DNA of 64,000 nt from Haloplanus rubicundus. GTDB taxonomy: Archaea; Halobacteriota; Halobacteria; Halobacteriales; Haloferacaceae. Below, one piece after another: positions 12,870 to 49,088 of the stretch. Within the stretch, counting starts at the first letter, position 1, and each line of letters begins with the position of its first letter. The position numbers were made by a program, and so were the translations under genes. Location: the NCBI RefSeq assembly GCF_003342675.1, contig NZ_CP031148.1, positions 1,364,001 to 1,428,000 of the forward strand, given 5' to 3'. The notes under the pieces were generated by a model. It was not told the DNA's origin. It made no database searches and saw only the letters and a list, made by a program, of their open reading frames with translations.

Positions 12870-13247
12870 CTAGGAGAACAACGTGTCGTAGGATGCGGGC
12901 AGTTGTGTCTGCATGCGGTCGAGTTCTGGTTCCGTGACGTCGACCCGAAGCGCCTCGAATACAGCTTGTGCGTAGGTCAACGCTTGATTCTTCGAGTCGA
13001 GACCGGCACGCTCTGCAACTCGTGACAAGAATTCGTCGAAGGAGAACGAACCTTCGGACCACGATTCGGGATCGACCGACCACGTCTGGAGAGCGGCTGG
13101 AAGAAAGTCCGCGATGTCAAGCCCCTCCTCGTGCGAGATGCGCTCGGCGAGTGTCCGAAGCGTCGCCTCGATCACCTCCAGCGCGCGCTCCTCCGTCTCG
13201 ATGTCCGTTCGCTCTCTGAGTCCGTCGACGATGGCAGCGGTCGTCAT
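12870..13247 (-). CDS. DUF2267 protein, single domain
   Basis: 125 residues, all one DUF2267 domain: an all-helical unit with ALEVIEATLRTLAERISHEE near 23-42, the DIADFLPAALQ block, and SFDEFLSRVAERAG followed by DRMQTQLPASYDTLFS at the end. The LPxxxxxLF tail is shared with the other two DUF2267 genes here. Function is unknown; in bacteria the domain travels with universal stress and acetate-metabolism genes in hypoxia or dormancy clusters. It ends close to gene fossils and may have been trapped at a breakpoint. Confidence 0.87.
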   Translation of the reverse strand: MTTAAIVDGLRERTDIETEERALEVIEATLRTLAERISHEEGLDIADFLPAALQTWSVDPESWSEGSFSFDEFLSRVAERAGLDSKNQALTYAQAVFEALRVDVTEPELDRMQTQLPASYDTLFS

Positions 13248-14933: not shown

Positions 14934-15701
14934 TCAGACTTCGAAGTCGAACAGTGAGTCGAACTCGGTCGGTAGTTGGTCGAGAGCGTGCTCGAGTTCG
15001 TGGGACGGAACCACCTCAGCCAGTACGCCGGCGACGACGCGAACCCATTTGCGAGCTGCCTCGTTGGAGACATCAGCTCGCCGGGCGACTCGGTCGACGA
15101 ACTCGTCCGCCGAGAACGCTGCCGCGTTGGGAGACTCTTGATCGATCACCCACGTCCCCGCCTCACCCTCGAGATAGCGCGAGAGGTCCTCGGCCTCACC
15201 CCGAGTGAGCCGCTCGCCCAGCGTTTCGATGACGGCACGGGCGACTGTTTCTGCCTCGACGTCCGGGGGGAAGGCGGCACGTTCGGCGACGAGGGTCACG
15301 AACGGTCGTCCGACCGGCACGGGCTCCACGTCGAAGAGGCGTCCGTAGTTCGAGGGGAGCTGGGCTTGTGCGTTTTCGAGTTCGTCGACGCCAACACGCC
15401 CCGCGACGACAGCGACGACCGCCCGTGCGCACCGCTCGACATCACTATCGGCGATGTCAGCCTCTCCCCCCACCTGTTCGAGGAACGTTTCGTAGGGCAT
15501 CGGTTCGTCTCTTTTCCGACTCGCTCCGACGAGTACATTACCGGAATCTGAGGGAAGAAACTCCGCGAGGTCGCGGGCCTCGCCGACGGAGAGACTGCTC
15601 CCGAGATTCCGGAGCGTCGCACGCGTCACCGCCTTGGCCTGCTCTCGTGACGCGAAGTCGCCCGTACGATACACCTGGTCGAGGATGTCAGTTTCGGTCA
15701 T
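14934..15701 (-). CDS. Tandem DUF2267 protein
   Basis: 255 residues made of two DUF2267 domains. Domain 1 spans about 1-125 (ATLRNLGSSLSVGEARDLAE, ending AQLPSNYGRLFD); domain 2 about 132-255 (AVIETLGERLTRGEAEDLSR, ending DQLPTEFDSLFD). The repeated LPxxxxxLFD ends show an internal duplication. The family has no known activity. A palindrome, ccggac-ggagc-gtccgg at 15714-15730, lies 12 bases before the start codon and could be an operator. It is one of three DUF2267 genes in 20 kb. Confidence 0.87.
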   Translation of the reverse strand: MTETDILDQVYRTGDFASREQAKAVTRATLRNLGSSLSVGEARDLAEFLPSDSGNVLVGASRKRDEPMPYETFLEQVGGEADIADSDVERCARAVVAVVAGRVGVDELENAQAQLPSNYGRLFDVEPVPVGRPFVTLVAERAAFPPDVEAETVARAVIETLGERLTRGEAEDLSRYLEGEAGTWVIDQESPNAAAFSADEFVDRVARRADVSNEAARKWVRVVAGVLAEVVPSHELEHALDQLPTEFDSLFDFEV

Positions 15702-21781: not shown

Positions 21782-23075
<1,294 letters not shown>

Positions 23076-27148: not shown

Positions 27149-27577
27149 TTACTCGTTCGGCTCGAATTCGCGGGACTGGCTCTCGATCACGGCAGCGACG
27201 TCGTCCAGCATTTCGCCGGCAGTCGCGACGACGTCGTCGAGCGTGGCGATCCCGACGAGCCTGCCATCGTCGTCGACGACTGGAATTCGCCGAACCCGGC
27301 CGTCGGCCATCGTCGCGGGGAGGTCGACTGCCGTAGCATCTTCCTGAATTGTCACCGGATCCGGCGTCATGATATCCTCGGCAGTCAGCTCGGACAGATC
27401 GTCGTATCGGGCCACTGCGAGGGCGATGTCGCGGTCGGTGACGATGCCGACCGGCTTGTCGTCCTCGGCGATCACGAGGTCGCCGAGTTCCTCGTCCAGC
27501 ATCGTCCGAGCGAGGTCTTTGACTGACGCGTCCGCACTGGCCGTGACGACACCGACCGCGAGATTCTTGACTGGCAT
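27149..27577 (-). CDS. CBS-pair protein
   Basis: 142 residues. CBS1 spans 1-60 (MPVKNLAVGVVTASADASVK, GIVTDRDIALAV) and CBS2 about 66-125 (AEDIMTPDPVTIQED, GIATLDDVVATAGE). It has the same length and layout as the protein at 9531, with which it shares the closing pattern of TLDDL/V plus a short acidic tail, indicating paralogy. The ATG at 27577 removes a 25-residue hydrophobic lead that has no CBS character. It is divergent from the second APC permease gene and may bind adenine nucleotides. Confidence 0.9.
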   Translation of the reverse strand: MPVKNLAVGVVTASADASVKDLARTMLDEELGDLVIAEDDKPVGIVTDRDIALAVARYDDLSELTAEDIMTPDPVTIQEDATAVDLPATMADGRVRRIPVVDDDGRLVGIATLDDVVATAGEMLDDVAAVIESQSREFEPNE

Positions 27578-27687
27578 AGTACACGGAGAAAGTTGTCGTT
27601 CGGTTACAAATAGCCAACCTGCTTCTATCAGTAGATGGGAATCTTGAGTCATGAAGAAGACGAACTGAACAACGATTGTGACGTGAT

Positions 27688-29359: not shown

Positions 29360-30004
29360 TCAGGACGACGATTCGAAATACGCCATCGCCTCTTCGTCGG
29401 AGACCTGATCGAAGCGCTCGTAGAACTGTCCGACCCCCCTGAAGCTGCTCGGCGTCTCGAGACAGATCACCTCGTCGGCCAACTCCCGTAACTCGCGAAC
29501 GGTGTCGGGCGGTCCGACGGGGACTGCCAGCACGACGCGATCGGCGTCGGTCTTCCGGAGCATCTCGAGGCACGCTCTGACGGTCGAACCCGTGGCCACA
29601 CCGTCGTCGACGACGGCGACGGTCTTCCCGGCCAAGTCGGGCTCGGAGCGTTCGCCCCGGTAGCGCTCGGCTTTCTGACGCGCGTTCTCGGCTTCCTTCT
29701 CCTTCTCCTGTTGGAAGTATTCCTCGTCGGATCCCGTCCCACGAAACGCTCTCTCGTTGCGCCAGACGCTCCCGTCGCTGGCGACGGCACCGATGGCATA
29801 CTCCGGGTTGCCTGGCGCGCCGATCTTCGACGCGACGACGATATCGAGCGGGACGTCGAGCACGTCGGCGACGGCTCGTCCGAGCGGAAGGCCACCTCGC
29901 GGGATCGCGAGCACCATATCCACGTCGACCTCTCGCTCGCGGAGTGCTTTTCCGAGTTGCTCGCCAGCCTCAGTACGATCTTTGAATCGGGAAGTGTTTG
30001 GCAT
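29360..30004 (-). CDS. Phosphoribosyltransferase
   Basis: 214 residues. Contains the PRPP-binding loop VAVVDDGVATGSTVRACLEM (about 128-147), preceded by the hood sequences AIPRGGLPLGRAVAD and VVASKIGAPGNPEYAIGAV. These fit the stress-associated phosphoribosyltransferase group often fused or adjacent to an alpha/beta hydrolase; the DosR-regulated mycobacterial proteins are examples. The substrate base is unknown. It is divergent from the hydrolase gene at 30111, with 106 bases in between. Confidence 0.9.
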   Translation of the reverse strand: MPNTSRFKDRTEAGEQLGKALREREVDVDMVLAIPRGGLPLGRAVADVLDVPLDIVVASKIGAPGNPEYAIGAVASDGSVWRNERAFRGTGSDEEYFQQEKEKEAENARQKAERYRGERSEPDLAGKTVAVVDDGVATGSTVRACLEMLRKTDADRVVLAVPVGPPDTVRELRELADEVICLETPSSFRGVGQFYERFDQVSDEEAMAYFESSS

Positions 30005-32190: not shown

Positions 32191-32372
32191 AATGCTAACT
32201 GTGCAGTTTTGAGGTAAAAAACGTGTACCTGAAGTGGGACGTGCTGTTTTTGACTGTCCAGATCGATCCGGCCGCTCATCACGAGTGGAGCCGTCGAGCC
32301 GTTGTCCCCTTTTTCGTGCGGTGGGAAAGGGTACGTCGATTCATGTTGGTGCTCGACCAACAGGTCGGTCGT

Positions 32373-32882
32373 ATGAACTTCGACGAATTCACCGGCACGG
32401 TACAACATCGACTCGAATTACCCGGTACCGGCGAGTCGCTCCGGGCGATCCGGGCGACACTAATGACACTTGGTCAGCGTCTTCCCGAGGGCAACGCCGA
32501 AGATCTCGCCGCGTCGCTCCCAGTAGAGATCAAGTGGTATCTGACCGGCGCGGTCCACGAACACGGCCAGCGCTTCGACTGGCAGGAATTCGTCTCGCGT
32601 GTCAGCGACATCGAACAGGCCGACCCGGCCGACGCGGCCTACCACGCTCGCGTCATCGTCGACATCGTACAGACGCTGGTTCCGGGGTCGGATTTCCAAC
32701 AACTGCGCGACTCGCTCCCCCAAAGCGAGGACGAGGAGAACTGGCGCAAGCTTTTCGAAATCGTCGATGCTGGCGGATGGAGTGAAGCCGCAGAGGCACA
32801 GACAGGTGGCGGTCCCCAGCCCGACGCGACGAGTCGAGACGAACTCGACGATGTGGATCGTGGCTCCGACACAGCAGAGTAA
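32373..32882 (+). CDS. DUF2267 protein with acidic tail
   Basis: 169 residues. Residues 1-130 are a DUF2267 domain: MNFDEFTGTVQHRLELPGTG, ATLMTLGQRLPEGNAEDLAA, then DWQEFVSRVSDIEQADPADA and QQLRDSLPQSEDEENWRKLF. A disordered acidic tail of 40 residues follows. The ATG at 32373 is chosen over earlier in-frame ATGs at 32223 and 32343, as MNFDEF begins the domain. It is more diverged than the other two DUF2267 genes. A tRNA gene begins 99 bases after its stop. Confidence 0.83.
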   Translation: MNFDEFTGTVQHRLELPGTGESLRAIRATLMTLGQRLPEGNAEDLAASLPVEIKWYLTGAVHEHGQRFDWQEFVSRVSDIEQADPADAAYHARVIVDIVQTLVPGSDFQQLRDSLPQSEDEENWRKLFEIVDAGGWSEAAEAQTGGGPQPDATSRDELDDVDRGSDTAE

Positions 32883-33685: not shown

Positions 33686-34915
33686 TCATTCGAGCATCCA
33701 GCCGAAGCGCTTCTCCCAGAACTCCTTGGTCTGGGGCTTCTTGCTTTCGCCGTACGTCTTGCGATCACGAATCTGCCGTTCGAGCACGTCGCGTGCCTCG
33801 TTGAGTGCGTGACTCGCCCCATAGCCTTCTCCGGAGGCGATGTACAGCCCTCGATCCGTGTGTAGACGGATGCGGGCAAGCAGAAGAGGCGTCCCTCGAA
33901 GTTTCTCGTCGTGTTCGTGAAGGTGGATCTTCGCGTCTAGAACGGACATCCCGTGGTCACGGTCGTCGAACTTCTCGATCATCGCAACGACGTCCTCGTA
34001 TTGCACGTCATCCAGCAAATCGGTGCCATAGACTTGGACGGCTCGATTGCCGCCAGCCTCCCACGTGAGCGAATCGAGGACGTCGGTCTTCGTGACGATA
34101 CCGAAGGGCCGGCCGTCTTCCGTGACGACGAGCGACGATCCGCCGATGGCGAACATCTCCTCGACGGCCGTCTCGAGTGTCGCGTCCGGGTAAATCGTGC
34201 GTACCGGCGAGACCATGACGTCCCTGACGGGGAGATCCAAAATGCGGGCGAGTTCTCCTTCCCGGGCGCCGAAACCGCCGTGAGCCCGACCGGAACTGGC
34301 CGAAATGTCCCCGCCGAACGAGTCCGTGCCACCTGCATCGCCGCCTTGGCTCTGTTTCGCGGAACGAACCGTTAGATCGGTCACGTCGTAGAGGCTCAGG
34401 ATGCCAATTGCGGTGTCGTCCTCGACGACCGGGAGATGTGTAATCCGATTCTCTCGGAACACGTGGAGTGCTTCACCGAAGGTCGACTCCGGATCGAGCG
34501 TGACGAGGTCGGCAGTGGAGGCCTCGGCGACGGTCGCCGCGTCGAGAAACGGCCGGACTTTCTCCAGAATCGCATCGACGGTGACGACGCCCGCTAGTTC
34601 GCCCCCGTCGAAGACCGGGAGGAGTTGTGCATCACTGTCGATCATGAGCTGGGCAACCTTGCGGATGTCCTCATCGGGGGCCAGTCTGGGGACGTGCCAG
34701 ACGAGCGAACCGACCTTTTCGTCGGGTTGGTGGTGCGAGGTGGCGAGCTGTCTCCTCGTGACGATTCCCTCGAATTCGTCGCCGTGTACGACGACCCCCT
34801 TGACGGTCGGATCGTCGAACGCACCGACGAGCTTCGACACGGGCGTGTCCGGTGAGAGCGCTACGTACTCTCCTGAGACGATATCGGCAATGTCCATGGT
34901 TGCTTGGATGTCCAC
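33686..34915 (-). CDS. Four-CBS protein with HPF/RaiA-like C-terminal domain
   Basis: 409 residues. Four CBS motifs form two Bateman modules: about 7-60, 70-120 (VPRLAPDEDIRKVAQLMIDS), 130-185 (LVTLDPESTFGEALHVFREN), and, after a glycine-rich linker (185-222), 232-285 (RDVMVSPVRTIYPDATLETA). The last 100 residues resemble the S30AE ribosome-hibernation fold: VLDAKIHLHEHDEKLRGTP, then GLYIASGEGYGASHALNEAR and DVLERQIRDRK. A nucleotide sensor joined to a ribosome-binding-like domain suggests energy-controlled translation arrest; this is inference. A second ATG six codons in (MDIADI) is an alternative start. Confidence 0.82.
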   Translation of the reverse strand: MDIQATMDIADIVSGEYVALSPDTPVSKLVGAFDDPTVKGVVVHGDEFEGIVTRRQLATSHHQPDEKVGSLVWHVPRLAPDEDIRKVAQLMIDSDAQLLPVFDGGELAGVVTVDAILEKVRPFLDAATVAEASTADLVTLDPESTFGEALHVFRENRITHLPVVEDDTAIGILSLYDVTDLTVRSAKQSQGGDAGGTDSFGGDISASSGRAHGGFGAREGELARILDLPVRDVMVSPVRTIYPDATLETAVEEMFAIGGSSLVVTEDGRPFGIVTKTDVLDSLTWEAGGNRAVQVYGTDLLDDVQYEDVVAMIEKFDDRDHGMSVLDAKIHLHEHDEKLRGTPLLLARIRLHTDRGLYIASGEGYGASHALNEARDVLERQIRDRKTYGESKKPQTKEFWEKRFGWMLE

Positions 34916-35202: not shown

Positions 35203-36537
35203 TTAGAATCCCCACGGGTACAGATCCGGGATCGCCTCGATGTCGGCGTGGACATCGAGCGGATGGAGGGCGCTCGTCTCGTCGAGATAGATGAATGCGT
35301 CGTATCGGTCGGGAAGAACCGTCGGCACGTAGTTCCCGGCTTCGTGAGCCGGGTGATACACGACACCGATGGCGCGATGCCCCCGAGGTCGGGTGAGCGG
35401 CGAGTCGTCGGAAAGCTCCCCGGTTACGAGGAAACAGTCGCCTCCACCCGCCCGCTCGAAGACGTGTTCGTAACTTCCCTCCTGTGCGGGTGGGACCGTC
35501 ATCTCCTCCAACCGTGCGCCCCACGAATCCGCGGCGATCACCGTGCCCTGGTGTGAACCCATACCAATCAACGCCACGTCGGCGCTGCCTTCGTGTTCGC
35601 GAACGAGTTGGCCGACATTGAGTCGTCCCCGTGCTTCCATGTCGGTCGCTCTAGCGTCACCGATATGGGTGTTGTGGGCCCAGACGATGCCCTTGCTATC
35701 CGATCCGTGATGCTTCTGCAAACGCTCCAGCGTTTCGACCATGTGCCGGTCCCGGATGTTCCAGGAGTCGACCTCGCCACGAACCATCTCTCGGTAGTAC
35801 TGTTCCGCGTTTTTTGCGACCAAGGCGTTCTGTTCGGCGTTGAAGTAGTCGTCGCGGCTGTGGTCGTACGCTGCGACCTGCTCGCGGAGCCGCGTCAACA
35901 GTTCCACCACCTCGTCCTCGCAGGTCTCGGGAACCATCTGGAGCGCCCGCGCGTACTCCTGTGCGTCTTCACCGTACGGTTCGAAACACCGGTAGGCGGC
36001 CTTGGCCTCGGCTGCCGCATCCGGGTCTACGTCTTCGAGATAATCCACGACTGCGTCCATCGACTCGAACAGGCTGTACACGTCGAGGCCGTAGAACCCG
36101 ATTCGATCGTCTTCGGGGAGACGCTGGTTGTGACGCTCCAGCCAATCGAGGAATTCGAGGGTCTCCCAGTTCGCCCACATCCATGTCGGCCACCGTTCGA
36201 ACGCCTCGAGAGCGTCGCGGATCGTCTCGGGGGACTCCGGGAGACCCTTGACGAACCGATTGATCTCGTAACAGTCCGTCCAGTCACCCTCCACAGCGAC
36301 GAACGAGAAATCTTTCTCTTGGACGAGTCGGGCCGTCAGCCGCGTACGCCAGCGGTAGTACTCCGTGGTGCCGTGCGAAGCTTCCCCCAGCAACACGTAT
36401 TTTCGATCTCCGAATTGCTCGACAAGACGATCCAGATCGGAGGGCTGTTCCAGTCCGTGCGCCGTCGAGCGGACGTCGGCGACGGCCGCGTCGATGTCGC
36501 CCGGTTCGGTCCACGACGTGCGATCCTGGAGCGTCAT
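35203..36537 (-). CDS. Erythromycin-esterase family protein
   Basis: 444 residues. Family blocks: YVLLGEASHGTTEYYRWRTR (the GExSHG motif with the catalytic-type Glu and His), VAVEGDWTDCYEINRFV, IGFYGLDVYSLFESM, then KGIVWAHNTHIGDARATDME with the key HN-x-H-x-G. These match EreA/EreB-like and succinoglycan-type homologues. Genuine macrolide hydrolysis is unlikely in this setting; mycobacterial and other stress clusters hold such domains next to phosphoribosyltransferases. Its start overlaps the end of the DUF5828 gene by four bases, so the two are translationally coupled. Confidence 0.93.
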   Translation of the reverse strand: MTLQDRTSWTEPGDIDAAVADVRSTAHGLEQPSDLDRLVEQFGDRKYVLLGEASHGTTEYYRWRTRLTARLVQEKDFSFVAVEGDWTDCYEINRFVKGLPESPETIRDALEAFERWPTWMWANWETLEFLDWLERHNQRLPEDDRIGFYGLDVYSLFESMDAVVDYLEDVDPDAAAEAKAAYRCFEPYGEDAQEYARALQMVPETCEDEVVELLTRLREQVAAYDHSRDDYFNAEQNALVAKNAEQYYREMVRGEVDSWNIRDRHMVETLERLQKHHGSDSKGIVWAHNTHIGDARATDMEARGRLNVGQLVREHEGSADVALIGMGSHQGTVIAADSWGARLEEMTVPPAQEGSYEHVFERAGGGDCFLVTGELSDDSPLTRPRGHRAIGVVYHPAHEAGNYVPTVLPDRYDAFIYLDETSALHPLDVHADIEAIPDLYPWGF

Positions 36538-37130
36538 ACGTCCCCTCGGCCGGCCTCTTCGACCACGTCGAGTCGCTGGCTGACTTTCTCTTTGAGTTGG
36601 TCGTCGTGAATGTTCACCTGGAATACGAACTCGTCTCCATCTTCCAGCCGTGTCGTCTCTCGAAGGTTCGCACTCACGAGTTCGTTATCGAAGTAATATG
36701 GTGCAAATCGAGTCATCACTCGCTCGTAGACAGCTGTTTCTAGCGTGCGGATGGCCTTCCGCGTGGTCGTGTCGACCGCACGGAGCCCATGTTCGAGGGC
36801 GTCCTCCCACTTCTCGAGCATGTCCTCGGGGCCGTCCCCTTCGGCTTTCTCGATCGATTCGAGAGCGTGCTCGCTCGCCCGTTCGAGATCCTCCGTGGCA
36901 GCCTGTCCGGCCCGTTCGCCAGCACCTCGTTCGAGACTGGCCTTCTCGACGGTCTTCTCGCTCACTTCCTCACCGAGGTCTTCGTGGGCTTTCGGCCGCC
37001 AGTCGTCCCACTCGGCGAGTGCGTCCTCATCGACATCGCTCTCCCGCAACGCACGGGTGATCCGCTCACCGTGTGCGACGACGTCTTCCCACGATCCGCG
37101 GACACGAAAGCCGGAGACGCGTTCTTCCAT
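36534..37130 (-). CDS. DUF5828 family protein
   Basis: 198 residues, acidic. An N-terminal part (MEERVSGFRVRGSWEDVVAH) leads to a long helical central region with EHALESIEKAEGDGPEDMLE, and the last 70 residues (YERVMTRFAPYYFDNELVSA, DEFVFQVNIHDDQLKEKVS) are a compact alpha/beta end. The family is confined to haloarchaea and has no known role. Its stop overlaps the start of the erythromycin-esterase-like gene, so they form an operon, and the 49-residue gene at 37157 lies downstream of nothing else, just 26 bases upstream on the same strand. Confidence 0.78.
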   Translation of the reverse strand: MEERVSGFRVRGSWEDVVAHGERITRALRESDVDEDALAEWDDWRPKAHEDLGEEVSEKTVEKASLERGAGERAGQAATEDLERASEHALESIEKAEGDGPEDMLEKWEDALEHGLRAVDTTTRKAIRTLETAVYERVMTRFAPYYFDNELVSANLRETTRLEDGDEFVFQVNIHDDQLKEKVSQRLDVVEEAGRGDV

Positions 37131-39250: not shown

Positions 39251-39565
39251 CTGCCAGTGTGCCGTTCTTCGGGTGAGGTCGGGACTAGGTCCTCGGGGTA
39301 GTAGTTCAATCCGCAACGTCTTCGCACGTGATCTAGCTCTGTTTCGACATCAGCCACACAAACCGAATCAGTGACTGCCCTCGTCGTACCAGAGCTCCGA
39401 ATCTTCGTCGCGTAGACCGTCTATTCTTACCGCTCTTGAGTCGGCTCGACTCTTCACTGCGTTGTCGCAAAACTATCTCATTACGAAGTTCCTCGTGGCA
39501 CCGACGGCTCCGACGACGGAGACTATCGCGTCCGATTTTTGTGTGCTCGCGCCGTCATCGAAGGT
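39251..39565. other. Gap before tandem uspA, no gene seen
   Basis: Neither strand holds a convincing ORF, RNA fold or repeat. The final part is the promoter region of the tandem UspA gene, but there is no sharp TATA box; a T-run at about 39534-39540 precedes the GTG starts. Confidence 0.45.
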
Positions 39566-40462
39566 GTGTTCGAACAGATTCTCTTTCCCACTGACGGGAG
39601 TGACGGAGCAGCATTCGCTTTCAATCACGTCGTAGACCTCGCAGCCCGCCACGACGCAACAGTCCACATCCTCAACGTCGCAGATACGACGGGGAACGGT
39701 ATTCTACAGATTCGAGGCGACGATATCGACTCTCTCGAACAGGAGGGAGATCGAATAGTCAGCGAGGCTGCCAACCGGGCACACCAGCGTGGAATAGACA
39801 CCGTCACGGAAGTCCGCCAGGGAGAACCGTATCGCGAAATCGCCGACTACGCCGAAACACACGGATTCGATCTCGTCGTCATGCCAACGCACGGACGCCG
39901 GGGACTCGAACGGTTTCTGCTCGGTAGCACCTGCGAGCGAGTCGTCCGTCGGGCAGATGTTCCCGTACTCACGATTCGACCCGACGACGACGTCAGGGTT
40001 ACTCATCCCTACCAGAACGTCCTCGTCCCCACCGACGGGAGTAACTGTGCCAATCAAGCACTCGCCATCGGCGCCGACGTCGCTGACGGTGAGGATGCAA
40101 CACTGCACCTCCTATCCGTGATCGCTATCACGGCGCTGGGGGCCGATGCTCGCCCCGATATCCAGATGGGGATGTTAGAAGAGAATGCCCACGAACTGCT
40201 TGACGAGGCTGCGGCGTTCGCCGAAAACGCTGGTATCGAAACAGCGTCGACAACGGTCGAATACGCCCCCTCGATTCACAAGGCGATCCTCACTCACATC
40301 GACGACCACGACATTGACCTCGTCGTCGTCGGCACACACGGGCGTACGGGCTTCGACCGGTACGTGCTGGGAAGCGTCACCGAGTATCTTGTTCGTACAT
40401 CGCCGATTCCGGTACTGACGGTCCGAGCACCCGAAGCGGACACAAAGGACGGTTCCGGGTAG
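39566..40462 (+). CDS. Tandem-domain universal stress protein
   Basis: 298 residues from GTG 39566 (VFEQILFPTDGSDGAAFAFN); a GTG nine codons earlier (39539) is possible. Domain 1 has VMPTHGRRGLERFLLGSTCE, where the first glycine of the ATP loop is a proline, so nucleotide binding in this half may be weakened. Domain 2 (from NVLVPTDGSNCANQ) has the full VVGTHGRTGFDRYVLGSVTE. The protein ends with a short acidic tail. It lies upstream of the cation ATPase gene in the same direction, 149 bases away, possibly as one unit. Confidence 0.92.
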   Translation: MFEQILFPTDGSDGAAFAFNHVVDLAARHDATVHILNVADTTGNGILQIRGDDIDSLEQEGDRIVSEAANRAHQRGIDTVTEVRQGEPYREIADYAETHGFDLVVMPTHGRRGLERFLLGSTCERVVRRADVPVLTIRPDDDVRVTHPYQNVLVPTDGSNCANQALAIGADVADGEDATLHLLSVIAITALGADARPDIQMGMLEENAHELLDEAAAFAENAGIETASTTVEYAPSIHKAILTHIDDHDIDLVVVGTHGRTGFDRYVLGSVTEYLVRTSPIPVLTVRAPEADTKDGSG

Positions 40463-40611
40463 TGTTGAGAACGGCGTACGCTCTTCGGGAGTGTTTTGCG
40501 TATCGCCCGTGTTTCGTCGCGTGACTATGACACGCGGCAGATCGGCGTGGAACGAATTTACAGATCGAACGAAGCCGCGTGCAGTGCCCCTACCAGAAGC
40601 CATCCAACAGT

Positions 40612-43341
40612 ATGACTCGGCCTGATTCGGAGATCTCGGAGCCTTGGCACACGATGTCGACTGACGACGTCTTCTCGGCGTTGGCGACCGGTGAGACGGG
40701 ACTTTCGTCCGATGAAGCGGCTCGCAGACTGTCGGAGTACGGCACGAACGACATCCACGACGCTGAACGGACATCGGTTTTCGAGCTACTTGTCTCACAG
40801 TTCCGTGACCCACTCATCTATCTCCTCGTCGTAGCAGCACTCCTGTCTCTCGGTATCGGGTTCATCCCTGGCGGTGAGCCCAATTACACCGAAACAGCGT
40901 TCATCGTTCTCATCATCGGTGTCAACGGGCTGTTCGGATTTGTTCAGGATTATCAGGCCACCCGGTCAATCGAAGCGCTTCGTGAACTCGCAAGCCCGGA
41001 TACGACCGTCTACCGCGACGGGCGGAAGCAGACGATCGATGCCGAACAGGTCGTCCCCGGTGATATCATCCACCTCGAACAAGGGGATGCAATTCCAGCC
41101 GACGCTCGAGTGCTGGAGAGTGACGAGTTGCGGACGAGCGAGTCACCGCTCACTGGGGAAAGCGCACCCGTCGAGAAAGCGACCGAGACCGCAGACGAAG
41201 AGACGCCGCTGGCCGAGCGCCGCAATATGGTCTATAAGAACACAACCGTCGTGAAAGGTCGCGGAAGCGCGGTCGTCGTCGAAACCGGCATGGAGACCGA
41301 GGTCGGTGGGATCGCGACCCAGCTCGGTGAGGCTGACGATCAACAGACACCGTTTCAGGCAGAGGTCGAGCATCTCGGAAAACAGATCGGTGGGCTGGTC
41401 GTCGCGCTGATCGTCTTGGTCGTCGCGGTTCAATTTCTGTTCACCGCAACGGATCCAGTTGCCATCCTCCTCGTTGGAATCACCCTTGCCGTTGCCGGCG
41501 TACCGGAGGGATTGCCTGCAGTCGTGACGTTCACGCTGGCGTTGGGCGCACGAGAGATGGTTGACCGGAACGCGTTGGTCAGACGACTCCCGGTCGTCGA
41601 AAGTCTCGGCTCGGTCGACGTCATTGTCACCGACAAGACTGGGACGATCACTGAAAACCGGATGACAGTGACGCGGCTGTACACGTCGGGCTCCGTCGTT
41701 GATCTGTCCGATTCGACCACGAAATCGGAGGGTGATCCCGGGGAAAGCGCGCAAAGTACCGCCGACGGCGACCAACTGACGACTCCAGCACTCGTTCCAC
41801 TGTTACGATGTGGCGCGCTCTGTAACAACGTCGAGCGGACGGACGACGAGTATCGTGGTGAGCCGACCGAGGTCGCCCTCCAGCGGATCGCGGACGAGGC
41901 GGATGTCGAACCCACTGGAGAGCGGTGCCGTGACATTCAGTTCTCCTCGGAACGGAAACGGATGACCGTACTCGTCGACGATGGAGCGGTGACAGCCTAT
42001 ATGAAGGGGGCACCGGAAGTCGTCCTAGATCGATGTAATACTATCCTCGAGGACGGTGAGACACACGATCTCACGGACGACAAACGCCAGGAAATTCTCG
42101 ACCAAACGGAGTCGTTTGCCGGGGACGCGCTTCGAGTGCTGGGATTCGCGTCGAAGGCTATCGACGATCCGTCGGCCGAACCGGATCAGATCGAGGACGA
42201 AATGGTGTTTCTCGGCCTGCAGGGGATGCTCGATCCACCCCGAGAAGGGGTCGAAGCGGCCATCGACGACTGCCAATCAGCCGGTGTCCGGACTGTACTG
42301 GCGACTGGAGACAACCTCACCACGGCCGAGGCTGTCGGCGAGCAGGTCGGGCTCGATCCCGACGGTGCCGTTACGGGCAGTGACATCGACGACCAATCGG
42401 ACGATCAGCTCACGAGTACGGTCGAAGATATCGATGTGTTCGCTCGAGTGACGCCAGATCACAAGGTTCGTCTGCTTAACGCGCTTCAGAACAATGGACA
42501 CACTGTCGTGATGACTGGCGACGGTGTCAACGATGCGCCAGCACTCACGCAGGCGGACGTGGGGGTCGCGATGGGAGGGCGTGGTACCGACGTCGCTCGG
42601 CAGGCGTCCGATATGATTCTGCGGGACGACAACTTCGCGACAATCCGTGACGCGATCCGGGAGGGACGGGGCATCTTCGAGAACGTGCGCAAGTTCGTCA
42701 ACTATCTGGTCTCGACCAACACCGGGGAGGTACTGGTGGTGTTCCTCGGCGTATTGCTTGGGAGTCTGCTCTTCCCCGCACAGTTCTCGGGGACGTCGCA
42801 AGCGTTGATTTTGACGCCGATTCTGATCCTCTGGATCAACCTCGTTGCGGATACGCTTCCCGCGCTTGCACTCGGGGCCGATCCACACGCTGATGGGCTC
42901 ATGGACCAGCCACCACGACCCCCTGACGAAGGCGTGATTAACACTCGCGTGTTGGTGTCGATTCTGACGATTGCAACCCTGCTAGCAGTGACGGGCCTCG
43001 GGCTCTTCTTCTACGCCCTCGATACCACTGGGTCGCTGCTGCGAGCCCAGTCGCTACTGTTTACGTTCATCGTCGTTGTCGAGTTGATCCGTATCCAAGT
43101 TATCCGCTCGCGGTACGACCAGCCGTTGCGTTCGAATCTGTGGCTCGTCGGTGCTATCGGTGTCTCGCTCCTCGTTCACATCACAGTCCTGTATACCCCG
43201 CTTCACGACGTTTTTCAGGTCGTTCCCCTCACCCTCGTCGAGTGGGCGTTGATCGCCGCTGGATTCGTCGTTTTCCTCCTGCTCAACGTGGTCATATCCG
43301 CATCGAATAACCGACTCTTCGAGTCACGGGCATCGGAGTAA
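40612..43341 (+). CDS. P2-type cation-transporting ATPase
   Basis: 909 residues. Domain order: cation-ATPase N terminus (about 10-75), actuator with SPLTGESAP, membrane helix 4 with AGVPEGLPAVVT, phosphorylation site VTDKTGT (Asp341), nucleotide domain with MKGAPE, hinge MTGDGVNDAPALTQADVGVA, and six C-terminal membrane segments. PEGL in helix 4 and the length place it in the P2A/P2B calcium-type or related Na/K-type group rather than heavy-metal pumps. Mycobacterial CtpF, a dormancy gene, is of this class. The ATG at 40612 is chosen; a GTG at 40579 is upstream. Confidence 0.95.
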   Translation: MTRPDSEISEPWHTMSTDDVFSALATGETGLSSDEAARRLSEYGTNDIHDAERTSVFELLVSQFRDPLIYLLVVAALLSLGIGFIPGGEPNYTETAFIVLIIGVNGLFGFVQDYQATRSIEALRELASPDTTVYRDGRKQTIDAEQVVPGDIIHLEQGDAIPADARVLESDELRTSESPLTGESAPVEKATETADEETPLAERRNMVYKNTTVVKGRGSAVVVETGMETEVGGIATQLGEADDQQTPFQAEVEHLGKQIGGLVVALIVLVVAVQFLFTATDPVAILLVGITLAVAGVPEGLPAVVTFTLALGAREMVDRNALVRRLPVVESLGSVDVIVTDKTGTITENRMTVTRLYTSGSVVDLSDSTTKSEGDPGESAQSTADGDQLTTPALVPLLRCGALCNNVERTDDEYRGEPTEVALQRIADEADVEPTGERCRDIQFSSERKRMTVLVDDGAVTAYMKGAPEVVLDRCNTILEDGETHDLTDDKRQEILDQTESFAGDALRVLGFASKAIDDPSAEPDQIEDEMVFLGLQGMLDPPREGVEAAIDDCQSAGVRTVLATGDNLTTAEAVGEQVGLDPDGAVTGSDIDDQSDDQLTSTVEDIDVFARVTPDHKVRLLNALQNNGHTVVMTGDGVNDAPALTQADVGVAMGGRGTDVARQASDMILRDDNFATIRDAIREGRGIFENVRKFVNYLVSTNTGEVLVVFLGVLLGSLLFPAQFSGTSQALILTPILILWINLVADTLPALALGADPHADGLMDQPPRPPDEGVINTRVLVSILTIATLLAVTGLGLFFYALDTTGSLLRAQSLLFTFIVVVELIRIQVIRSRYDQPLRSNLWLVGAIGVSLLVHITVLYTPLHDVFQVVPLTLVEWALIAAGFVVFLLLNVVISASNNRLFESRASE

Positions 43342-44920: not shown

Positions 44921-46238
44921 ATGGAGATACGTCGCACCGTCCCCGTTAAACTCGACGTGGCCGACAGCGACGCCGACCTTCTCCACGAAACCATCTCCGA
45001 GTTCCTGTGGGCCGCCAACTACGTCGTCGACCACGCGTGGCAAGGCGAGTACAAGACCACGAGCAAAGCCGAGCTCCAACGGGAAACATACGACGACGTG
45101 CGGGCCGAAACGAGGCTCCAAGCTAACCTCGTTCAGAACGCTCGCAACAAGGCCGCCGACGCCGTACAGAGCGTCGTCTCTCGGTGGAAGCAAGGTGACT
45201 GCGCGGGGAAGCCGCGCTTCACCGCCCCGACGCTCGTCTACGACAAGCGGTGTGCGACGTTCAACGACGACCACGCGACGCTCTCAACCGTCGAAGGGCG
45301 TATCACCGCCAAGTACGTCCTCCCCGACGAGAGCCGCGAGACGCCCCACTCGGAGTATCTGTTCAACGATGACTACGAAGTGACGGGCGGGGAACTCCAC
45401 TACCGCGACGGTGAGTTCTACCTTCACGTCCGAACAAAGGCGGATGTGGAGTTCGAGACCGCCGACAAAGGCGGATGTGGAGTTCGAGACCGCCGACAAA
45501 GGCAACGACGAGCACAGCACAGTCCTCGGCGTTGACCTCGGCATCGAGAACGTCGCCGTCACTTCGACAGGTTCGTTCTGGAACGGGTCGGAGTTGAACC
45601 ACTGGCACCGCGAGTTCGAGAAACGGCGTGGGTCGCTCCAACAGCATGGAACACGGGCCGCCCACGAAACCATCCAGTCGATCGGATGCACCGAGACGGG
45701 TCGCTACGACCACTTCTTACACACTGTCTCGAAGGAACTCGTCGCGGAAGCCGTCGAAAACAACTGTGACGTGATCGCGTTCGAGTACCTGACTGGGATT
45801 CGTGAGCGGATGCCGAACGCCAAGAAATTCCACGCGTGGGCGTTCCGACGCCTGTTTGAGTACGTCGAATACAAAGCCGAAGTCGTCGGCATCTCGGTTG
45901 AACAGGTGAGTCCCGCATACACGAGCCAGCGGTGTTCTAAGTGCGGCTTCACTCACGAAAACAACCGCCCGGCCTCGGACAGACAGGCTGTATTCGAGTG
46001 CCTGAAATGCGGGTACTCACCACACGCGGACTACAACGCGGCGAAGAATATCGGTCTAAAGTATCTCCGCTCGGCGCAAAAGTCGTCGGGCGGAGGCGCA
46101 CCCGTAAACGTGCGCTTGAATCGCGGGACATTGAACGTGAACGGCAATTACCGGCCTGCCGCCGACGGCGGCCAGAACGGGAGTCCACGCGAAAGCCCCA
46201 CCCTCAACGAAGCGAACGGTGGAGCCGTGAGCGAGTAG
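44921..46238 (+). pseudogene. tnpB: tnpB broken by a 31-bp tandem duplication
   Basis: The first part (MEIRRTVPVKLDVADSDADL to [19 protein letters not shown]) and the second part ([20 protein letters not shown] to the end) belong to one TnpB but lie in different frames. The cause is the tandem repeat at 45435-45496. The second part contains RuvC Asp ([11 protein letters not shown]), Glu ([14 protein letters not shown]), zinc-ribbon cysteines ([15 protein letters not shown]) and the final [12 protein letters not shown]. Apart from the shift all catalytic residues are kept, and dropping one repeat unit restores a protein of roughly 428 residues. It is unlike the shorter TnpB at 21782. Confidence 0.92.
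45435..45503 (+). repeat. 31-bp tandem duplication inside tnpB
   Basis: The unit at 45435-45465 is repeated exactly at 45466-45496, followed by a further seven matching bases (caaaggc). Both full copies are identical, indicating a very recent event. Because 31 is not a multiple of three the reading frame is shifted by one base. The seven-base direct repeat at the borders (caaaggc) is the likely slippage or recombination seed. Confidence 0.97.
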
Positions 46239-46992: not shown

Positions 46993-47109
46993 AGGAGGTA
47001 GATCCGAAGCATCACGGAAACCACCACCGATAGTTCTGGCCGGCTGCGGCCCGAGTGACACTCCTTGATTTCGTGGGTTAACTGACGCAAACTCTTCACC
47101 GTGATCGAT

Positions 47110-47400
47110 TCGGGGAGTTGGGGCGATTCAGAAAGCACAGACGAGTGGCTGACCAGACGTGAAATCCATCCCCCAATCCCCGAGAGGGCGTCTCGGTCGC
47201 CGGTGACGAAGTCGCGGATTGCGTCCTAGTGTTTGCCGACGTGGATCGACGCGCCCACGACCACGGCGTCATACTCTTCGGGAGTGAACGAGTCCGGTCG
47301 GTCACGCACGTCGACCGCACTTGCCTCGTGACCGCGCTCGCTGATCGTTCTCGTCGCCGCCGACGGCTCCCCGCTTGTCGAGCGTGCGCTCACGTACGTT
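47110..47400 (-). pseudogene. HemG-type flavodoxin fragment with in-frame stop
   Basis: On the reverse strand: STSGEPSAATRTISERGHEA, AVDVRDRPDSFTPEEYDAVV and VGASIHVGKH, then a TAG (47226-47228), then DAIRDFVTGDRDAL. This matches the N-terminal half of menaquinone-dependent protoporphyrinogen oxidase / flavodoxin-domain proteins, where the residue at the stop is often Q or R, so one base change could have made it. After about 47120 the similarity ends. The start codon and first strand are also degraded. A dead gene. Confidence 0.65.
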
Positions 47401-47410
47401 CTCGAGAATT

Positions 47411-47960
47411 ACATTTTGGCTGACTTGTGGGGTGGCCGCCGCGCGGACACACCGAGTTCCCGGCGCCCCGACGGTCCCACGTCCCGACCAGTTCCCTGCC
47501 GTTTCGTCGACTGGGAACGTCGTCATAGTAGCGGTTCCGACCCCGTCCGAGGCGGCGACCACTGGCGCCACCGCCGCAACTATCGGCGGAGAGTCGTGAG
47601 TCCAGTCGAGACGTGTTTCCGATCCTCTCACCGAAAATATCAGAAAAATATATATTAAGAAAGTAGTGAATTTGACGAAATGACCGCGGTCGCTCGTTGC
47701 ACCATCTTACTCCTCGATAGCCAACAAAACGCCTGAAACACCGAAAAACTCCAATAACTCGTAATCGATCCGGTCGATCAACTCGTCGTTCGTATCGAAT
47801 TAAAAAAGGGAAATAAAAAATAGTATCGCATCGAAAAAGCTTCGAAAAGGCGTTAGCTCGTCGTACGTGTCACTGAAGACGCCCCTCGCACGCATTCGTA
47901 TCATCTACCTTTTATTTTTCGAATATAATATTTATATGACATTTCTGCCGATCACCGTCC
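47411..47960. other. Gap with strongly AT-rich segment
   Basis: 47411-47630 has competing frames on both strands with no recognisable family. From about 47640 to 47950 the base composition falls far below the surrounding GC level, with runs such as gaattaaaaaagggaaataa and ttcgaatataatatttatat. No repeats with regular spacing (iterons) or ORB-like motifs are obvious to me, so I do not call an origin. It may be decayed DNA at a breakpoint. Confidence 0.5.
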
Positions 47961-47965
47961 TCTCG

Positions 47966-48058
47966 TCACCAATCACACCCCACCGAGACGCTGTGCACCG
48001 GCACGGGCGACTGGCGGGTCACCTTCTGTGCGACGCTCCCGAACAGCGCCTTCCCGGT
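47966..48058 (-). pseudogene. UspA C-terminal fragment
   Basis: Reverse strand reads TGKALFGSVAQKVTRQSPVPV then HSVSVGCDW and a stop. The LFGSVAQKVTRQSPVPV stretch is the last helix and strand of a universal stress protein. No N-terminal part remains. It abuts the IclR-like HTH fragment that runs the other way. Confidence 0.65.
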
Positions 48059-48087
48059 CGGTGAGCGCTGTCGGCCGCCTGTGAGAC

Positions 48088-48279
48088 GAGGTTCTCGCCC
48101 ACCTGCTGGACCTCGTAGTTCTCGCTGAACGACTGTCCGCGACCGTCACGGAACTCGCCGCTGACCTCGACGCCTCGAAGAGTACGATTCACAACCACCT
48201 CACGACGCTCGTCGAGTTGGGCTACGTCGTCACCGAGGGGAACGTCTACCACCTCGGGCTCCGAGCGACGTACTCCTGA
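48088..48279 (+). pseudogene. IclR-type HTH fragment
   Basis: [20 protein letters not shown] then [20 protein letters not shown] is the N-terminal winged helix-turn-helix of IclR regulators, ending abruptly at TGA (48277-48279). There is no start codon at a sensible place and the 180-residue effector domain is absent. The wing is similar in kind to the intact IclR at 51346 but clearly a different sequence. Confidence 0.65.
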
Positions 48280-48461
48280 CCCACGCGCGCCGACCCACCG
48301 AAATTCACTCCTGCCGAACAGCCGTTCGGATCGGTGATTCGCCGAAACTGACTAACATCAATAATTTTGTTATCTCCAATCGCCATCACTCGGCTCCATC
48401 ATATGGCCGTCGGCTCCTCGGCACGCAATTTATATATTCGGCCCTCCTCGATTACGGAAAT

Positions 48462-49088
48462 ATGGCACACGACGGCGACGACGGCGGCCGACCATCCAGC
48501 AAGGTCGCCCGACTGATCGACGAGTACGACCTCGGCGTGACGTACGGCGACGAACTCGAACGACGCTGGACGGCCGACGGCGACGAGCGGGAGAGTCTCC
48601 GTGACCTCGCCGACCGCTTCAACCGGCGGCTCCTCGAGAGCGCGCTGACCGCGGCCGGGGCATCGACGGTCAGCGGCGAGGTGGAGAACCTCTATCGACT
48701 CCTCACGGCCGACGACGTGAGCAGCGGGATGCGGACGGAGGCGCGGGCGCGCCTCGAACGCGACGGCGTCGACGTCGACGGACTCGAACGCGACTTCGTC
48801 ACGTATCAGGCCATTCGCTCCTACTTGACCGAGTACCGCGACGCCGAGTACGAGGAGCCGTCCGCGACCGAACAGATCGAGAGCGTTCTGGAGACGATCC
48901 AGCGCCTTCGATCCCGTCTGCGCTCGATCACCGAGGGGAGTCTGGATCGCCTCCGGTCGACCGACCGGCTCACCCTCGGCACGTTCCGCCTGTTCGTCGA
49001 CGTCGACGTGCTCTGTGAGGACTGTGGCGCCCAGTACGGCGTCGCCGAACTGCTCGAACGCGGTGGGTGTGACTGCGAGGACGACTAG
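48462..49088 (+). CDS. rdfA: Rod-determining factor RdfA
   Basis: 208 residues. The N terminus (SSKVARLIDEYDLGVTYGDE) and LERRWTADGDERESLRDLAD, the central TVSGEVENLYRLLTADDVSS, and the C-terminal cysteines in VLCEDCGAQYGVAELLERGG are the features of haloarchaeal RdfA, needed for rod cell shape in Haloferax. A TATA-like ATTTATATATTC about 25-35 bases before the ATG gives a leaderless promoter. It converges on the SMC-related gene with the two stop codons overlapping by four bases, the usual partner arrangement. Confidence 0.9.
   Translation: MAHDGDDGGRPSSKVARLIDEYDLGVTYGDELERRWTADGDERESLRDLADRFNRRLLESALTAAGASTVSGEVENLYRLLTADDVSSGMRTEARARLERDGVDVDGLERDFVTYQAIRSYLTEYRDAEYEEPSATEQIESVLETIQRLRSRLRSITEGSLDRLRSTDRLTLGTFRLFVDVDVLCEDCGAQYGVAELLERGGCDCEDD

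Follow-up and report, generated by a model that had tools for sequence, protein, structure and literature searches.

A probable accessory HibA-type ribosome hibernation factor with an extended loop in a haloarchaeal stress-gene island

A gene located in a 64,000-nucleotide stretch of the Haloplanus rubicundus genome (NZ_CP031148.1, positions 1,364,001 to 1,428,000; hereafter the window) very probably encodes an accessory member of the HibA family, a stress-specific auxiliary hibernation factor beside a housekeeping core HibA. This explanation is based on four CBS domains followed by an S30AE-like tail, relatives in the PDB, conserved Asp residues, an extended loop, a distinct core clade, four paralogues in one genome, and the published work on HibA (Madru et al., Nat Commun 2026, PMC13324472). 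The HibA family and its CBS-HPF architecture have already been published, and a close orthologue is already present in the PDB. What is added here is the core/accessory split, the difference in loop length, and the island and plasmid setting, none of which is mentioned in the available portion of that paper; a term search of its main text gave a single occurrence of "halo" (Halobacteriota, about Balon) and no relevant passage on paralogues.

Gene structure and domain architecture

The open reading frame spans positions 33686-34915 on the minus strand, with GTG at 34915 and the stop at 33686 (409 aa). The preliminary description had taken this frame at its full length. The frame was confirmed, but the GTG start is probably six residues too early: 72 of the 74 homologues compared carry a Met opposite residue 7, which places the true start probably at the ATG at 34897 (403 aa). 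The features of the gene are as follows.

33686-34897, minus strand: HibA-type gene (open reading frame list; likely ATG start at 34897 from the homologue alignment)
34736-34891, minus strand: CBS1, residues ~9-60 (Pfam CBS x4; secondary structure of the model)
34562-34699, minus strand: CBS2, residues ~73-118 (Pfam CBS x4; model)
34370-34534, minus strand: CBS3, residues ~128-182, with ribose-type Asp177 (Pfam; alignment)
34244-34369, minus strand: Gly/Ser-rich extended "PTC loop", residues 183-224 (alignment; pLDDT <50 at residues 181-220)
34067-34234, minus strand: CBS4, residues ~228-283, with Asp278 (Pfam; alignment)
33752-34042, minus strand: C-terminal HPF/S30AE-like domain (Pfam, full-length model, tail-only model, Foldseek)
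33689-33751, minus strand: C-terminal tail, residues 389-409 (...FWEKRFGWMLE), different from the core HibA tail (alignments)

Four CBS stretches were detected by Pfam (E 2e-36), and a search of NCBIfam returned generic CBS matches only. The C-terminal region (residues 313-387) matched Ribosomal_S30AE below threshold; when searched alone against PF02482, the tail scored 17.6 bits (E 0.007) and did not reach the gathering cut-off of 23.7, and all 12 aligned tails matched the same family, with a best E of 9e-4. An AlphaFold model of the full-length protein, built with 23 homologues (pLDDT 75), consists of the CBS module followed by a C-terminal domain of E-H-E-E-E-H order, with low confidence at residues 181-220 (pLDDT <50). 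Its Foldseek list was swamped by CBS and AMPK gamma folds, including AMP-bound CBS proteins, and the tail (residues 293-409) was therefore modelled separately. The resulting model (pLDDT 83) has the same E-H-E-E-E-H order, and its top 18 PDB matches are all of the YfiA/pY/HPF type (E 8e-5 to 2e-3), confirming at the level of predicted structure that the C-terminal domain is HPF/S30AE-like. Thus, the four CBS domains and the HPF-like C-terminus proposed earlier are both borne out, the latter, originally a by-eye call, in spite of the sub-threshold Pfam score.

Relationship to HibA and other ribosome-associated CBS proteins

HibA has been described as an archaeal hibernation factor in which a four-CBS module is fused to an HPF/RaiA domain carrying two archaeal insertions, and its role in hibernation has been shown experimentally in Pyrococcus and Thermococcus (PMC13324472). 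According to the same text, cryo-EM places the C-terminal domain inside the mRNA/tRNA channel of the 30S subunit; the CBS module was seen to adopt three positions on the 50S subunit, in one of which a loop lies in the peptidyl-transferase center. When the window protein was compared with PDB sequences by phmmer, the strongest relatives included 9l96_a (E 9e-206) and 9sr9_H (E 9e-33). A separate profile search also matched 9sr9_H (E 6e-12), in line with an HPF-like C-terminal domain. The 9sr9_H chain is read as P. abyssi HibA from its length of 392 aa, its architecture, and the companion P. abyssi ribosome chains. It shares with the window protein the four CBS domains, the CBS3-CBS4 loop, the C-terminal HPF/RaiA domain, and an Asp at the ribose position of both CBS3 and CBS4; however, the two proteins are only 29% identical, the loop of the window protein is ~24 residues longer, and the window gene has three paralogues in its genome and sits inside a stress-gene island.

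The closest solved orthologue, 9l96_a, is 75% identical to the window protein over 403 residues and 100% identical over 404 aligned residues to a gene on plasmid pHME505 of Haloferax mediterranei (WP_004060604.1). The latter shares with the window gene the long loop (48 vs. 47 residues), the clade, and an adjoining universal stress protein (Usp) gene, although it is plasmid-borne and the window gene resides on a 3.4-Mb chromosome-sized contig. This orthologue is chain a in entries 9L96, 9L98, 9L9C, and 9L9V, which also contain haloarchaeal uL2, a 50S protein. No haloarchaeal small-subunit chain was found in the PDB copy with uS19, uS3, and uS12 of this genome as queries, so that only the large subunit seems to have been modelled in these entries. 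Literature searches did not find a paper describing them.

Several other known systems resemble the window protein in part. Bacterial YfiA/RaiA/HPF proteins have the fold of its C-terminal domain, as judged by Foldseek, but lack the CBS module and show marginal sequence similarity. Dri, the dual ribosomal inhibitor of Pyrobaculum (9e6q/9e7f), is likewise a CBS-module protein in ribosome entries; it has two CBS modules and no HPF/RaiA domain (PMC13324472), and identification of the window protein as Dri was rejected because the window protein carries a single four-CBS module and, in addition, an HPF-like domain. The Sri proteins of M. acetivorans (9znf/9zng/9zni), whose paper was not found in a literature search, are also CBS-module proteins in ribosome entries, yet appear to lack the HPF/RaiA domain, judging from entry titles only. 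In addition, the Haloferax CBS-RHF protein HVO_2384 (PMC12607858) probably belongs to the core HibA type, based on its mass of 42.5 kDa.

Core and accessory HibA genes in haloarchaea

Four HibA genes are present in the H. rubicundus genome, one core (contig C2, 2725830-2726921) and three accessory; the paralogues of the window gene comprise a 75% identical copy, a 52% identical copy, and the divergent core copy. Of 59 haloarchaeal genomes, this one included, almost every one has a core copy; the distribution of accessory copies is patchy. Many plasmids of haloarchaea also carry accessory genes, with 40 records in which the match spans 80% or more of the query. Core HibA has the same domain order and conserved residues as the window protein but is only ~40% identical to it, with a short loop and another C-terminal tail.

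The difference in the loop was analyzed in an alignment of 74 haloarchaeal sequences (8 core and 66 accessory), with P. abyssi HibA for comparison. The stretch between CBS3 and CBS4 (residues 183-229) has 47 residues in the window protein and 38-48 in the accessory sequences, compared with 23 in all core sequences and in P. abyssi, which makes the accessory loop 15-25 residues longer than that of the core in 66/66 sequences. Seven positions (G191, G192, G213, G214, G216, R218, and G220) are invariant in every accessory loop although overall identity drops to ~40%, indicating that the loop is constrained. A DNA pattern for the accessory loop signature, GG[FY]Gxx-E-G, matched 141 of the 391 haloarchaeal genomes searched; a share of these matches must be due to chance, as a reversed control pattern matched in a few genomes too. 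When the loop columns were left out of the tree, core sequences formed a single clade (support 99/99), and one sequence with a mid-length loop (L028) fell outside both main groups. Because the distant P. abyssi sequence roots this tree weakly, the direction of the change in loop length is not settled.

A second accessory subgroup (locus L080, 2826-4064; L023, L024, L026, and L027) has GGQ in the loop, for example RGGGQNRGGFG. The occurrence of this tripeptide, as in class-I release factors, in a Gly-rich accessory loop is probably due to chance, and mimicry of release factors was rejected as GGQ, present in several mid-length loops, is absent from the window type. In Natronomonas sp. LN261 (L053, 2684-5490), accessory and core-type HibA open reading frames are arranged in tandem. 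HibA remnants were also observed in related genomes, including a G002 fragment interrupted by two stops (C7, 944120-944377) and short C-terminal pieces in G005 (C1, 446837-447139), G026 (C2, 242358-242621), and G029, which suggest turnover of accessory copies.

Stress island and gene neighborhood

From its left end to ~47.5 kb, the window has a GC content of 56-62% with GC3 mostly 0.57-0.79, compared with 64-70% and 0.85-0.94 beyond 48 kb. The sharp change of composition at ~47000-48500 suggests the border of an island, and the low-GC part is likely an integrated stress island extending beyond the window on its left side. Pfam matches in this part include several Usp genes, stand-alone CBS proteins, DUF2267 proteins, a phosphoribosyltransferase, an alpha/beta hydrolase, an erythromycin esterase, DUF5828, a CitMHS transporter, and a P-type ATPase. 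The main neighbors are listed below together with their recurrence among 39 window-type accessory loci, counted in flanks of up to ~6 kb on each side.

12870-13247, 14934-15701, and 32223-32882: three DUF2267 proteins, a family of unknown function (near 17/39 loci)
27149-27652, minus strand: stand-alone two-CBS protein (Pfam)
29360-30004, minus strand: phosphoribosyltransferase (Pfam; near 20/39 loci)
35203-36537, minus strand: erythromycin-esterase family protein, upstream neighbor of HibA (Pfam)
36534-37130, minus strand: DUF5828 protein of the same conserved block (Pfam)
39539-40462, plus strand: tandem universal stress protein (Pfam; Usp near 28/39 loci)
40579-43341, plus strand: cation-transporting P-type ATPase (Pfam; near 13/39 loci)

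Part of this arrangement is conserved elsewhere. A plasmid of Salinigranum marinum has the same succession of DUF5828, erythromycin esterase, and HibA, with phosphoribosyltransferase and hydrolase genes nearby, and a related arrangement with DUF5828 adjoining HibA is found on a Salinirubellus plasmid. Usp genes flank 28/39 window-type accessory loci vs. 1/21 core loci (Fisher p 4e-7, the loci not being phylogenetically independent). This enrichment depends on the larger set of 39 loci and was not significant in a smaller second genome sample (3/12 and 2/13 vs. 1/21). Inspection of 18 accessory upstream regions by eye revealed no obvious common motif. The reading of the region as a dormancy island, already put forward in the preliminary description, agrees with the Usp, CBS, phosphoribosyltransferase, erythromycin esterase, and cation ATPase neighbors, and these genes together are reminiscent of the DosR dormancy regulon of mycobacteria, to which the HPF protein RafH belongs.

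TnpB-like open reading frames were also noticed within the island, one at 21782-22831 with a Cas12f1-like TNB match in Pfam and two overlapping ones at 44921-46238 called by eye. On a plasmid of Natrinema caseinilyticum (L135, 16946-18681), a gene annotated as 50S ribosomal protein P1 adjoins a second CBS-domain gene, near Hsp20 genes.

Proposed function and alternative explanations

By analogy with the characterized HibA proteins, the window protein most likely serves to park ribosomes that stand idle under stress. Its four-CBS disc should occupy the vacant tRNA sites on the 50S subunit, with the CBS3-CBS4 loop reaching toward the peptidyl-transferase center, and the docked protein would block translation and shield idle ribosomes. 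The accessory subgroup, with its longer, motif-bearing, Gly-rich loop and its association with Usp islands and plasmids, may be induced by stress and may have a role specific to the loop, which could hypothetically plug the active site of the 50S subunit more deeply. Against the HibA assignment stand the Pfam S30AE score below the gathering value and the low identity to P. abyssi HibA; as to the auxiliary role, the three accessory paralogues of one genome could be partly redundant. A more specific version, a two-tier system in which a near-universal short-loop core HibA is complemented by mobile stress-island HibAs whose extended loop plugs the peptidyl-transferase center and possibly the exit tunnel, is tentative and somewhat doubtful. 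If true, accessory HibAs could be able to hold on to free 50S subunits, whereas P. abyssi HibA was not seen in a complex with the 50S subunit. That the accessory protein of H. mediterranei occurs in entries with 50S proteins, where no haloarchaeal 30S protein could be detected, is consistent with this two-tier version but does not show it.

It is also conceivable, albeit rather unlikely, that accessory copies duplicate the function of core HibA, with differences confined to expression, the long loop being a neutral low-complexity expansion. The variable length and middle sequence of the loop and the gene remnants would fit such redundancy, which is at odds with the seven invariant Gly/Arg positions across all 66 accessory sequences. 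Recruitment of the HPF-like fusion to another partner, such as the acetyltransferase Pat2 or DNA-replication/repair proteins, with hibernation not its main role, appears very improbable. HVO_2384 did co-purify with a Pat2 variant (PMC12607858), and pull-downs with Thermococcales HibA are reported to contain DNA recombination and replication proteins (PMC13324472); however, the closest solved orthologue sits in entries with 50S proteins, and deletion in T. barophilus led to loss of 70S ribosomes and delayed regrowth (PMC13324472).

A further question concerns control by nucleotides. Asp177 and Asp278, at the ribose position of CBS3 and CBS4, are present in 74/74 haloarchaeal homologues and in P. 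abyssi, whereas the CBS1 and CBS2 counterparts vary. The pattern matches the single AMP/ATP site reported at the CBS3/CBS4 interface of P. abyssi HibA, which binds AMP with a Kd of about 12 uM (PMC13324472), and may point to an equivalent site here. Together with the AMPK gamma and AMP-bound CBS proteins among the best full-length fold matches, it would suit a switch in which AMP or ATP between CBS3 and CBS4 toggles ribosome binding, so that energy charge directly controls shutdown. Such a switch seems improbable on present evidence because, in P. abyssi, AMP left the conformations of HibA on the ribosome unchanged, ATP had only a minor effect, and native complexes contained no visible nucleotide (PMC13324472). 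The earlier suggestion that the protein could tie energy charge to ribosome shutdown is supported as regards hibernation, through the HPF-like fold, the orthologue in entries with 50S proteins, and the role of the family; neither of the two findings that would have overturned it, an unrelated fold or no ribosome association, was obtained. The coupling itself is unproven, as AMP and ATP had no clear effect on P. abyssi HibA at the ribosome.

Implications

These findings locate a probable hibernation factor within a stress island of an archaeon and raise the questions of why a genome may keep as many as four copies of HibA and what role the conserved longer loop might have at the catalytic center of the 50S subunit. 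They suggest that haloarchaea layer accessory, often plasmid-borne hibernation factors over a core one.
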